A DNA stretch of 64,000 bases, taken from the NCBI GenBank assembly GCA_964019415.1, contig OZ025883.1, forward strand, positions 4,072,086-4,136,085, given 5' to 3'. The stretch comes from Ianthella basta. Lineage: Eukaryota; Porifera; Demospongiae; Verongiida; Ianthellidae. Positions 1,261-46,632 of the stretch are shown piece by piece. Numbering within the stretch: position 1 is the stretch's first letter; the number at the start of each line of letters is the position of its first letter. Position numbers and translations under genes: made by a program. The notes beneath the pieces are model-generated. The model had not been told where the DNA came from, searched no databases, and saw only the letters and a list, made by a program, of their open reading frames with translations.

Positions 1261-1416
1261 CTCTTGCTGAGCTACAACAAGCTGGCTTCCTCACTAGTGA
1301 TGAGTGTGAGGGTTACTGCATTCATGCGCTTAGTGGAAAGTCTCCTGCAGTGGTGTCCCAAGCCTGTGAGATTATGAGGAGACATGGCTTTGAGACAGAG
1401 TCGACACTCATTGCAG
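1261..1416 (+). CDS. Module exon 1 of the receptor-like gene (short variant)
   Basis: This exon encodes 52 codons of a repeated helical module whose function is unknown. It starts after TTTCACACAG and ends at GCAG|gtaagc. It begins with two bases and ends with one base of a split codon (phase 1-1), so it can be added or skipped without changing frame. The peptide starts ALAELQQAGFLTSDEC and ends in ESTLIAG. It keeps the L-x-E-L-Q-Q-A start, the D-E-C triplet, the K-S-P turn and the final x-L-I-A-G. Compared with the other seven copies it lacks about five residues after the cysteine, where the others read like DISDVL, so it may be a divergent or partly decayed copy. The hydrophobic spacing resembles helices 2-5 of a CARD or other death-fold domain; that is inference. 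Confidence 0.7.
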
Positions 1417-4400
1417 GTAAGCAGATGTTTTGTAAATTGTCTGTGTTTGGTTGTACTTACAATGGAGCCAAGTTATCAATGCCATGTTGACATCACCCCT
1501 ATGCACTTATCATGTAAAGACTTTGTGTGTCAGTTGTGACATCATGAGCTCCACACTATTGTGGCCACTTTTAGTGTCTGTCTGTTGTTGTATGAGTGTG
1601 TGTCTGTGTAGAATAGGTGATGTGGGTGTGTCGGTTGGTGAGTGCACTTAGGTGTATGGGTAGTTGTTGCTATGTATGTATCAGTATTTTCATGTGGCAG
1701 CAGCTCATGTTGATCTTTAGGGGCTGCTTAGCCATGAACTGGCTTACTGGGCACAAAGCAATCTGACAGATGTCCAATCTACGGAGTACTACATTTCCTA
1801 TTGCAATTGTTTGTGTTAATCACCATTCCATTGTCTGTACAACACTGTGTGCCCACTGTGACATACTGTACTGATTGGTTGTGTTAAGTGCACCCTCTTT
1901 ATAAGAGCATTTCCTTTATTGAGCACCCAATTCCTTACCAGTTTTTCACCCTGATTGTTTAGGTGTCTATTGATTTCGGGGCTTCATCCCTTCTTTGAGG
2001 TGCATATAGGACTCCCTGGAAGACTAGCCGCTGTAATCATGAAGTGCAAACTAGTACAAACTTTTTTGGTTGGTTGTCCACACTGGGCACCAGGTACCAG
2101 AGTCGAAATCATGGTATTATACATAAACATGAGCAGTATTGCTGTATACAATCTCTAGCTCACAATCTATGTCATTACTAGATTTTGCAATTATACTGTA
2201 AGTATGTGGATGAATTTGTATAATATCATGCAAGCACTTACCGGATACCGGTTAGCTATGTGGACAAGCAATTCAAAAAGTCTGTAACATAGCGCTAAAT
2301 GGAAACTCGTTCACTGCACTAAGCGGTGGCCATCTTACTGTGACATTTGCATATCATTATAATTTGTTGATGCTTTTGGAATGTTCGGTTAAGCGCATAT
2401 CCTTTATTATTGAAGGTGCATATTTCTATCCTGTCAGAGTTATTAGCATATTATTATGTCTTACAACAGATTAGTATGGTATTTAGTCCCATTACATTGT
2501 ATTAACACATACGTATGAACTATTCGTATGAAGTATGTATATACGATCCATCTGCTACTGCATCAGTGTGTGTATGGTATGAGTAGGTGTGTCAGTTAGT
2601 GGGTGTAGGTGTATGCTTATGCGTTGCAATGTGTATCAGTATTTTCACGTGGCAGCAGCAGAGTGATTGCTTAGCCAAGAATTGGCTTGCTGGCCACAAA
2701 TATTGGAAACTAACAGAGTGTGTTGAGTAGGGTGGCTGGCAGAGCAATTTAATCTGTTAACTGTACTAGTGCTCTGCCTGTGGAGGTACATCTCCCGTTA
2801 GTTATACTACAAGAGCATTGTAATGGTCTAAGAGAGACCTAGCTTGTCTTACAGTATCCTGCAGTGTGTATAATATGTACGTTTGGTGTTTCTTGTGTAG
2901 CACAGTGATTGAAATTTAGGCATCGCTAAAGCACAGGATAGGAGAGCAGATAATGGATGTGGCCTTCACTTCCTCATAACCAGAAACAGTGAGTAGGTGT
3001 TAAGTGTTTTATTTAGATGAAATCAAAGCTGTCATGGTTACTGGAAGATGGCTTTATCTGTGTGTATTGCAAGGATCCATTGTAGCCTTTGTTGAGTGCA
3101 AAAATGGCATTTAGCAATAATTTACTTAAACTTTTTACTATCACAGATTAGCATTGTAATTGTTATATGTCACTGCACTGCACAGGCCTACTATCATTGT
3201 CTCTGAGGAAGTAGACAACATATGGGTATGAGTCGGACACGGCTCCTTGAGCTACATGATCTAAGACTGAATAGAGGCACTGCTCGGTAGCGCTTACTGC
3301 ACAATGGATGAGTCTTTCAATTATAAGAGTACACACGGTATATAATCCACAATGTCCAATGTTGTTGCGTAGTTACCTTTCTCTGTGTCAGGCTATCCTG
3401 ACTATGGTGAACAGATGTGCCCACATAACTCATAAACAGCAGTCTCACAATACTGGCATGTGGGTAGGTGTGACTGTGTTGGTGGTTGTGGCAGTGTGAG
3501 TTGGTGTGGTTGTATGGGTAGGAGTGACTGTGTAGAGATTGTGCAACCATAGTCTGAGATTGTATACTTTTTGAACTAGTGCATTGTTGCATTAATTTTG
3601 TGTGCATTGTCTGTTTGCATGCATGTATGAGTGTTTGTGTGCTTGTTCCTTTCTGTTATAGTGTTATGTTGCCTAGTTGTATGCAGCCACTTTGAGACGC
3701 CATCATTGGATAGAGACTACTTACATACCAACTGTGTCTGTTAGTTTCTTCTGTATTTCAATGCTTGAAGCTAATGTACAGTAATACAGGTACTGACAGA
3801 AATGAAAGTTTTGACCAAATTGGCAATTGTTTGAGCTAACATAAACGGCAACGACCATCATTACAATGATTTCATCTGTTGACCCATTTCTCAAAGTTTT
3901 TAATCTAATGTTGTTTACTTCATGTGGGATCAGCTTGTGTCAGAGGCTGGTTGTCGAAATGGCACTAGGTGGACTGCACCATTCATCCGGCGATGCGTGG
4001 CGGAGCAAGCGCAGCATGCAGAAGGCCATGTTTGCGCATATATATTTTGCCTGTGAATGTACACCTTCACCATTATATACTTGTGCCATGAAATCAGTGT
4101 AAATAGACCTCGTCATATCCAGTTGTGTGTAATGATATAATGGTACGTGTTCTGGTTTAGTGCAGTGCTTGAATTAATGAGTTCTTTATAGTGTGACTAA
4201 AAGCACACGACAGATGGTCAGAATTGGGACTTAGTCCTCCATGTACCTCTCCACGCGCTGCCATTTAGTTGGCATAGTCTCTCTGTGAAGGGGATCTTAG
4301 TGTTCCAACCAAATTTTAACAGCAAGCAGTAGGCGCCCACTTGGTGATCCACCATCACACACTTCTCTTTCACTGATCTTGTGCTAATGTGATTTTGTCT

Positions 4401-5104
4401 TTCTCAGGCCCTGTGGCTGCTTCACTTTCAATACTGGTAGGACCAGTATTTCTAACTTCAGCACTATTTTTGATACATACTTAAGGCCAATATACTGCAG
4501 GTATTGGCAGAAATGTTGTAATTCTTGAACTAGCACAAAAGGTGGTGAACACCATGTAATGGATACTTCTGTTCACCTTCTCATTCCCAAAGTCCCCAGA
4601 GTCATTCTTCTGTTTGTCAATTTGAGATGAAATGTGTTGGAACTGGCTACTGAAGACAAGTATGCCAAAATGTCAAACTTCACCATTTCATCAACTGTGT
4701 GAGGTTCGCTAGAATCCATCTAAGTAAAGTAACGAAGTAAAGGACTAGGGACGATTTGGTTATATTGGCTATGTAGCCTACACCGTGATAGTTTGCATTG
4801 CACCTCTCCAATGCACTTACCTGCAGTAGCCCAGTTGGCTAGTCACACTGGTGAATGGGATAGACAGATTCTGCTGTATTATGAATCTCATGTTTTTAAT
4901 ATTCAGACAGTTGTGTGTGTGGTAGGATAGTCAGCTGATTGGTATGACTTTTGTAAGCAAATGCCAGAGCTACTTACATCTGTATTAAATGCGTTTCTTG
5001 TGTGTCCACCTGTCCTACAGTTAACTGGAGTTGCATGTTGTTGCTGTATCCTGATTCAACTTTGGCTGGTTTCATGTCATAACAATCGTGCCCACAAGAT
5101 GTAG
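1417..5104 (+). other. Intron with old local repeats, no exon seen
   Basis: No open frame here has splice sites plus similarity to the module. Parts are degraded copies of neighbouring DNA: 3660-3890 resembles 250-430, and 4985-5104 matches 12413-12523. The latter is the left half of a segmental copy that is interrupted on its right by the large inverted-repeat element. The rest is simple AT-rich intron sequence. Confidence 0.45.
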
Positions 5105-5172
5105 ACGGCGTTTACACTAGAACGTTTTTGGAAACGTCCGTTTTCGAATCGTTCTCGTACTGCATTGTTTAC

Positions 5173-45500: not shown

Positions 45501-45937
45501 CTTAGCTGTGGCAGTGCATGGCTACATAGCTACCATATGCAGACTGTACAACTGCACTCATCTTCCATACCTTACACACATAAAAGAAGAGACTCATTGC
45601 TACATTGTAGGCGAATAGTTCATGAGCAATGACATAGCAGATTTACAAACTATTCACCTACATTACACATGGTTTAGATCCATGGCACATTCCCTATGCC
45701 ATGCTACACACTGTGGCTATGTGAACACTGTATTGGTTAAACTGATGGTAGGATGTGTACAATATCATGGATGTGTGCATTACATGGACTACAACTAAAA
45801 TTCAGATTTTACCCTTTTAACACGAACCAAGTCATCTTGCATGCTCGCAGCCAGTGAAGGGTATATATATAGTCGTGCAATGAACAGTAGTAGATTTGAA
45901 ATTTGTGTATGATTACAATTGTTCTGTTTCTGTGCAG
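45501..45937 (+). other. Intron with a 53 bp mini-MITE
   Basis: At 45608-45660 the sequence TAGGCGAATAGTT is answered by its inverted form AACTATTCACCTA with about 27 bases between. The same ends bound the larger foldback element at 56842-57058, so this is an internally deleted member of that family. The intron ends GTTTCTGTGCAG. Confidence 0.6.
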
Positions 45938-46222
45938 CTGAACAAGTTCTTACCCAGTATCGTGAACGGTTCATTAAAGTTATGGACACAAATGCAGTGG
46001 TGTATGGACTGAAACATGCAAATATCATTGGTGATGGTGATCTGAAAATGATCACAAGGACTCTTGTTGATGCTAAGCAGCAAAATGAGTTCCTCCATGA
46101 CCATCTGCATCGAACATGTGATGAAGAAGCTTTGCTAGAAGTTTGTGAAATGCTTATTAACGTGCAGGGTAACAGAAAGATGAATTCTTTAGGAAGAGAT
46201 ATGAAGTATCTGCTTGAGAAAG
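45938..46222 (+). CDS. CARD (death-fold) domain exon
   Basis: This exon has 95 codons, phase 1-1, between TTCTGTGCAG and GAAAG|gtaaca. The peptide begins AEQVLTQYRERFIKVM and ends with a D-M-K-Y-L-L-E-K-G helix. The length and the six-helix hydrophobic pattern fit a CARD: a kinked first helix (Y-R-E-R-F-I-K-V-M-D), a G-L-K-H-A-N-I-I-G-D turn leading into D-L-K-M-I, a long helix with Q-Q-N-E-F-L-H-D-H-L, then A-L-L-E-V-C-E-M-L. CARDs bind other CARDs in caspase-activating or NF-kB-type assemblies. The position C-terminal to a GTPase suggests an output domain. The L-K-H-A-N-I-I-G-D-G-D turn parallels the L-Q-Q-A-D-L-I-S-x-x-D/E-C start of the 57-residue modules. Confidence 0.75.
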
Positions 46223-46615
46223 GTAACATGTCATGCTCATGTGCCTGAGTGTGTATGTACATACAGGCATACGTCACAATGTGTGTGTTTGCTTGTACTT
46301 ACATGTAAGTCTGTGCTGGCTTATATATTATGTATCCATACGGTCATAATAATTGTGTGTTGTGTGTTGTGTGTGTGTGTGTGTGTGTGTGTGTGTGTGT
46401 GTGTGTGTGTGTGTGTGTGTGTGTGTGTGTGTCTGTGACATGCAGCTTGCTCTATGGATCACATGTACAACACAGTGTCAACCTCTGTCACTCCACCCAT
46501 GTACTCACTACACAAATCCACACATATACACACACATACATACATGCCCACTTCACGCTTGTTATCATTGCCTTCAAGTGTATTCATGTATATCTCTCCA
46601 CTGTTTCCCACACAG
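46223..46615 (+). other. Intron with second GT tract next to the last exon
   Basis: A (GT)n run at about 46369-46432 is followed by ACATGCA-type sequence, a CATACACAC stretch and a pyrimidine tract TATCTCTCCACTGTTTCCCA ending CACAG. No coding exon. Confidence 0.7.
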
Positions 46616-46632
46616 GGAAGCAGACTAGCTGA
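46616..46632 (+). CDS. Terminal exon of the receptor-like gene (short form)
   Basis: The strong acceptor CCCACACAG joined in phase 1 to the CARD exon gives G-K-Q-T-S and a TGA stop. A cytosolic protein ending six residues after the CARD would result. A second AG thirteen bases on (ACTAG, 46627-46628) would switch to a frame with a hydrophobic 108-residue tail; see the next entry. I prefer the short form because it uses the first AG after the pyrimidine tract. Confidence 0.45.

Follow-up and report, generated by a model that had tools for sequence, protein, structure and literature searches.

The window analyzed here, a stretch of 64,000 nucleotides from the sponge Ianthella basta (C16:4072086-4136085), carries a series of small exons encoding variants of one helical module, followed by an exon for a GTPase and by another for a CARD-like domain. 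Do these exons form one gene, and what would its product do? Based on searches of the window and of the genome (209 Mb in 96 contigs) we favor, with a probability of about 0.57, a single gene for an intracellular receptor of the ROCO type. Here, an exon-encoded and fast-changing sensor array, into which all modules are spliced by default, would precede a Roc-COR switch, with a CARD-like domain as the tail.

A phmmer search of the open reading frames (ORFs) of at least 30 residues in the window recovered eight modules, each with E <= 8e-5 for both module queries used, and one extra match on the opposite strand (E 0.12). The eight module exons are located on the plus strand at 1261-1416 (52 residues, type b), 9929-10102 (58 residues, type c), 14157-14327 (type d), 16590-16760 (type e), 20861-21031 (type f) and, for type g, at 26455-26625, 31427-31597 and 35480-35650; from type d onwards each encodes 57 residues. 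Types were assigned by eye and named a to g. An AG acceptor, a GT donor and phase 1-1 were found in all eight, which confirms the original prediction of eight phase 1-1 exons with good splice sites. The number has to be corrected for the gene as a whole, here named gene B: it contains 11 modules, three of which sit upstream of the window, so that the first module of the window is the fourth of the gene. The 2500 positions directly 5' of the window (C16:4069586-4072085) are N.

Downstream of the modules and on the same strand, the GTPase exon (41009-43149) contains the motifs GPSAVGKS and DTGGQPSFQD and is entered in phase 1 and left in phase 0. It is followed by a bridging exon (43401-43464; phase 0 in, phase 1 out), two linker exons of phase 1-1 (44654-44740 and 45183-45254), the CARD-like exon (45938-46222; phase 1-1, 95 residues) and a terminal coding exon (46616-46632) encoding GKQTS before the stop. 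ORFs similar to the bridging exon and to the first linker are present in two neighboring groups, A and C; the second linker was examined in the window gene. An 18-exon model of gene B encodes 1516 residues with no stop. Modules and GTPase exon are indeed entered in the same phase, as proposed before, and the model is open throughout; however, splicing the GTPase exon straight to the CARD exon results in seven stops. As the former is left in phase 0, the CARD exon requires the bridging exon to be in frame. Any subset of modules had been expected to be neutral to the frame, and 1000 of 1000 random subsets were open because the exon phases are symmetric.

A candidate first coding exon of gene B lies at C16:4056162-4056189, approximately 16 kb 5' of the window. 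It belongs to a conserved block, in the B copy ATGGATCCGTACTTATTAACTGATGAAG followed by gtgagc, which is found 5' of the module array in each of the groups A, B and C. All four copies compared had an ATG start and phase 1, that of A remaining in frame despite an indel of 3 nucleotides. Across the genome, 11 matches were obtained, two of which derive from a single split place; they are located on C16, C52 and C75. No copy was found in the window and none near the GTPase. A second copy is located within the module array of group C (C16:4184837-4184965). Since it lies inside the array, group C may comprise two genes, perhaps fused, or have two starts, perhaps with an alternative promoter. Exact patterns for spliced module-module and module-GTPase junctions, as signs of retro-copies, had 0 matches each.

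The ROCO-like character of the GTPase, as originally proposed, is supported by fold. Five PDB matches with E <= 0.001 were obtained by Foldseek (all <= 2.2e-4), and every one was of the Roco type: two chains of C. tepidum Roco, M. barkeri Roco2, an isolated COR domain and LRRK2. The underlying model is of low confidence (mean predicted local distance difference test, pLDDT, 49.8), with a poorly modelled G domain and a better part at residues ~290-530, whose matches point to a COR domain directly after Roc. We call the exon ROCO-like by fold. Pfam matches to Roc were all under the cut-off (E 0.08 in the window, 0.0012-0.004 in three relatives), and a weak match to COR-A was found in one relative, L047 (E 0.054). 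Additionally, the GK of the P-loop and DTGGQ were invariant in all eight aligned GTPases. A Pfam scan of five GTPase ORFs, those of the window, L042, L043, L046 and L047, gave no match to NACHT. Sequence matches of the GTPase in the PDB, ten to FTO (best E 0.015) and one to a stathmin-like chain, were regarded as chance.

For the module, the AlphaFold2 model of the copy at 31427-31597 (module 7) showed a complete five-helix bundle with a pLDDT of 96.3. The module aligns to columns 21-80 of CARD, i.e. to all except helix 1. The suggestion that it resembles half of a death-fold domain was thus not borne out, and with five predicted helices it is not a six-helix death fold either; it is rather predicted to be a CARD-like bundle without CARD helix 1. 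A Pfam scan of the eight window modules gave no match to CARD (PF00619) at E <= 10 and only UBA_ARI1 in two of them (best E 0.027). PDB sequence searches with the modules were negative, and direct homology of the module to the C-terminal domain was not found. The predicted CARD at the C-terminus can be retained as CARD-like: the exon at 45938-46222 had no Pfam match itself, and hhalign related it (59%, E 9e-5) to a profile of seven PF00619-positive domains, built from seven of eight CARD loci after exclusion of L005 for a stop. In gene A, the second of the CARD-like exons matched PF00619 under the cut-off (E 0.14).

In total, 32 modules were found in 264 kb around the window. All were located on the plus strand with canonical splice sites, a length divisible by three (156-189 nucleotides, 52-63 residues) and phase 1-1. 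The divergent modules of loci L041 and L042 had canonical sites and phase 1-1 in seven of seven cases, judged by eye. Since the modules are homologous, the common phase is inherited and does not represent 32 independent events. They form the groups A (6 modules), B (11) and C (15), each continuing with a GTPase exon of 713 residues and with CARD-like exons. In A the types are ordered as a b a a f g, in B as a b c b c d e f g g g; C has a longer series of a, b and c and then d e f g g. Self-comparison revealed widely duplicated intron DNA, among the matches listed mostly at 83-99% identity with some stretches of 72-77% near modules, and this duplication dominated the all-against-all ORF comparison.

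The family extends further, and all of the following counts are lower bounds. The GTPase had at least 68 genome matches (from 63 scored among 318 candidates), the module at least 150 in each of two genome searches (scored of 297 and of 349 candidates) and the C-terminal CARD-like domain at least 150 similar places scored of 675 candidates. In the reading that we favor, the window gene would belong to a large family of intracellular ROCO-type receptors, arranged in tandem in part. On C10, two modules separated by an intron of 142 bp lie upstream of a Roc-like ORF of 1049 residues. Locus L041 on C6 contains five modules, and no GTPase match was found in the 10 kb that it spans. A dense module cluster, spaced at ~1 kb in places, was also seen at C6:0.55-0.89 Mb, where none of the 63 scored GTPase candidates is located. 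Many GTPase matches were located on C5, and no C5 place was among the 300 module matches listed. In the single C5 region examined, L043, the GTPase is 80% identical and ankyrin exons are found upstream in place of the modules (Pfam E 1e-10 and 3.7e-6); its exon at 1469-1562 exits in phase 1.

Modules change faster than the GTPase. Within types, 167 nonsynonymous and 44 synonymous changes were counted in 31 of the 32 modules (the copy at 4194629, with 189 nucleotides and of mixed type, was excluded), compared to 56 and 66 in the GTPase (Fisher p 8.8e-10). Counted omega was 1.20 for the pooled modules and 0.24-0.26 for the GTPase; by type it was 1.15 (a), 0.85 (b), 1.07 (c), 1.09 (d), 0.39 (e), 1.03 (f) and 2.08 (g). 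Maximum likelihood estimates, based on 27 of 32 modules without the two-copy types d and e, were 0.96-2.89 for five types and 0.34 for the GTPase, the latter differing from 1 with p 3e-9. For the modules, omega above 1 was clear in type g alone (p 0.006) and weak when summed over types (p 0.044); the null of omega = 1 was set on a kappa grid, which replaced a single fixed kappa with a summed p of 0.0003. Diversifying selection likely acts on some module types. Per-site counts from types a, d, e, f and g (19 of 32 modules) placed the changes off the hydrophobic core and clustered them at residues 13-37 (81 of 114), a segment picked after the counts were seen.

According to the reading that we favor, the short first exon would begin the protein, and an array of modules of ~57 residues, each a five-helix bundle derived from a CARD without helix 1 and encoded by one phase 1-1 exon, would form its N-terminal sensor. 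By default every module would be spliced, in order, into a single repeat array. This array would gain, lose and swap modules through duplication and recombination within introns, and its variable face would evolve fast because it binds changing ligands, e.g. microbial or non-self molecules. Binding would lead to a GTP-dependent opening or dimerisation of the Roc-COR switch and to clustering of the CARD-like signalling tail. What we observe are the exons with their phases, the open model, the tandem copies, the fold resemblances, the different selection on module and GTPase and, in one relative, ankyrin exons at the position of the modules; the joint splicing, ligand binding, GTP switching, CARD signalling and immune role are what we infer. 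A sensor array that gates Roc-COR and a CARD-like tail is the most economical reading because of the position of the ankyrin repeats in the relative, the fast change off the core and the conserved switch. Two observations have lowered our confidence slightly. Nonsynonymous divergence exceeded that of the flanking introns in four of seven types and not in types a, e and g, and the last exon before the GTPase of L043 (2213-2299, phase 1-1) is unconfirmed, being ankyrin-like by eye in an ORF with no Pfam ankyrin match.

Instead of a fixed array, a transcript might contain a chosen subset of modules, so that one gene would encode many receptors. The exons would be chosen combinatorially or in a mutually exclusive manner, similar to the brown-algal LRR-ROCO genes (LRR, leucine-rich repeat) or arthropod Dscam. 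Such selective inclusion is possible, and as an account of this locus we consider it rather doubtful. Every module exon is neutral to the frame, a first exon recurs within the array of gene C, and splice variants are reported for the brown-algal ROCO genes (PMC11378527). Furthermore, an element near TGTGTGATTGTCCTCCCTGTCC, about -47 to -13 before the module acceptors, is common to the modules of C16 and of C6/C10. Its identity is above that of the rest of the intron even between these distant clusters (0.70-0.76 in windows of 20 nucleotides starting at -47 to -32, compared to 0.34-0.51 upstream of -60 and 0.37-0.46 downstream); it may be a branch point or splicing signal. Genes B and C each contain a near-complement of it (2 mismatches in 14) in their last intron. 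However, when one consensus selector was paired with six introns (first and last of A to C) and one reversed control each, the duplex was weaker than with the reversed intron in five of six; the exception, the first intron of C, was stronger by 0.7 kcal/mol only, and no convincing docking partner was found in these introns. The order of module types, alike in A, B and C, suits a fixed array equally well, and in one sister gene the GTPase is preceded by ankyrin repeats, which normally form a continuous array.

These ankyrin repeats, occupying the same position, also argue against an account in which the modules signal rather than sense: stacked CARD-like adaptors would seed or cap CARD filaments, and their fast change would be due to pathogen inhibitors or relaxed constraint. 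We hold this to be unlikely. The modules do resemble CARD, omega is not clearly above 1 for most types, and death folds are known homotypic adaptors (PMC8195603). However, a CARD-like domain is already present at the other end of the gene, and fast change off a conserved hydrophobic core would suit a ligand-binding array. It is very improbable that the module exons are separate short genes and that the GTPase is transcribed from its own promoter near 40.9 kb. The long introns, 2.3-8.5 kb between modules and 5.4 kb before the GTPase exon, would fit such an arrangement. Against it, the only first-exon copy found for B precedes the array, although unrelated start exons may exist. The acceptor of the GTPase exon is of phase 1, and the intron upstream of this exon resembles, by eye, that of the ankyrin-bearing relative L043.

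Among animal ROCO proteins, those of the DAPK1/LRRK2 type likewise combine Roc-COR with N-terminal repeats. The relative with ankyrin repeats on C5 recalls the domain order of DAPK1, ankyrin-Roc-COR-death. In contrast to these proteins, the repeats are CARD-like modules here, the family is tandemly expanded, and no kinase exon was noticed, no specific search having been made. The original prediction knew of no named family with this layout, and in this respect it has to be modified: the brown-algal LRR-ROCO genes, the closest known system, have an N-terminal array of one repeat per symmetric-phase exon before Roc-COR (PMC11378527). The same paper, citing Zambounis et al. 2012, reports that their exons are duplicated and shuffled and that repeat sites are under positive selection; a role as immune receptors is proposed. 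Their repeat is an LRR of 23 residues in phase-2 exons of 72 bp, whereas the module here is predicted to be helical, is longer and is of phase 1-1. The C-terminal CARD-like domain and the animal host differ as well, and splice variants, reported there, were not seen for the present gene, which is known from genomic sequence. Prokaryotic conflict systems with AP-GTPases carry LRRs and bacterial effectors, unlike the window gene; PMC8195603, which presents them, also covers AP-GTPase-COR switches and reports that proteins with a death fold plus TRADD-N are largely expanded in sponges. Sponge NLRs are similar in that they are intracellular switch proteins of large families, CARD or DEATH domains being present in some, but use NACHT and LRR instead of Roc-COR and N-terminal modules (PMC12909245); sponge NLRs and immune transcripts are described in PMC12909245 and PMC8242945. 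Among the matches listed in a literature search of titles and abstract openings, with most subscription journals outside its scope, none dealt with sponge ROCO arrays with CARD-like modules.

Besides this gene, the window contains a block at 53032-62289, of which the 264 kb contain three further copies with ~90-98% identity. It includes the head-to-head ORFs 53208-54003 (minus) and 54264-55276 (plus; signal-like start by eye) and a pair of S/F/G-rich ORFs (57323-58171 and 59062-59607); none of the four ORFs scanned reached a Pfam cut-off. ORF fragments resembling a reverse transcriptase of the long interspersed nuclear element (LINE) type were seen by eye at 38499-38774 and 48791-49889.

Taken at its widest, the locus might be an animal ROCO gene in which tandem exons, derived from the death fold and under diversifying selection, are included combinatorially or as directed by promoters. 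This would yield a sensor repertoire, convergent with the exon-shuffled brown-algal system. We put this forward with considerable reserve; if true, the death fold would serve there as a recognition repeat and not as an adaptor. A truncated death fold seems to have been multiplied into a fast-changing array where ROCO proteins carry LRR or ankyrin repeats. If confirmed, this would be a second, separate use of ROCO arrays with one repeat per exon, here in animals, and would provide a testable locus for innate receptor diversity.

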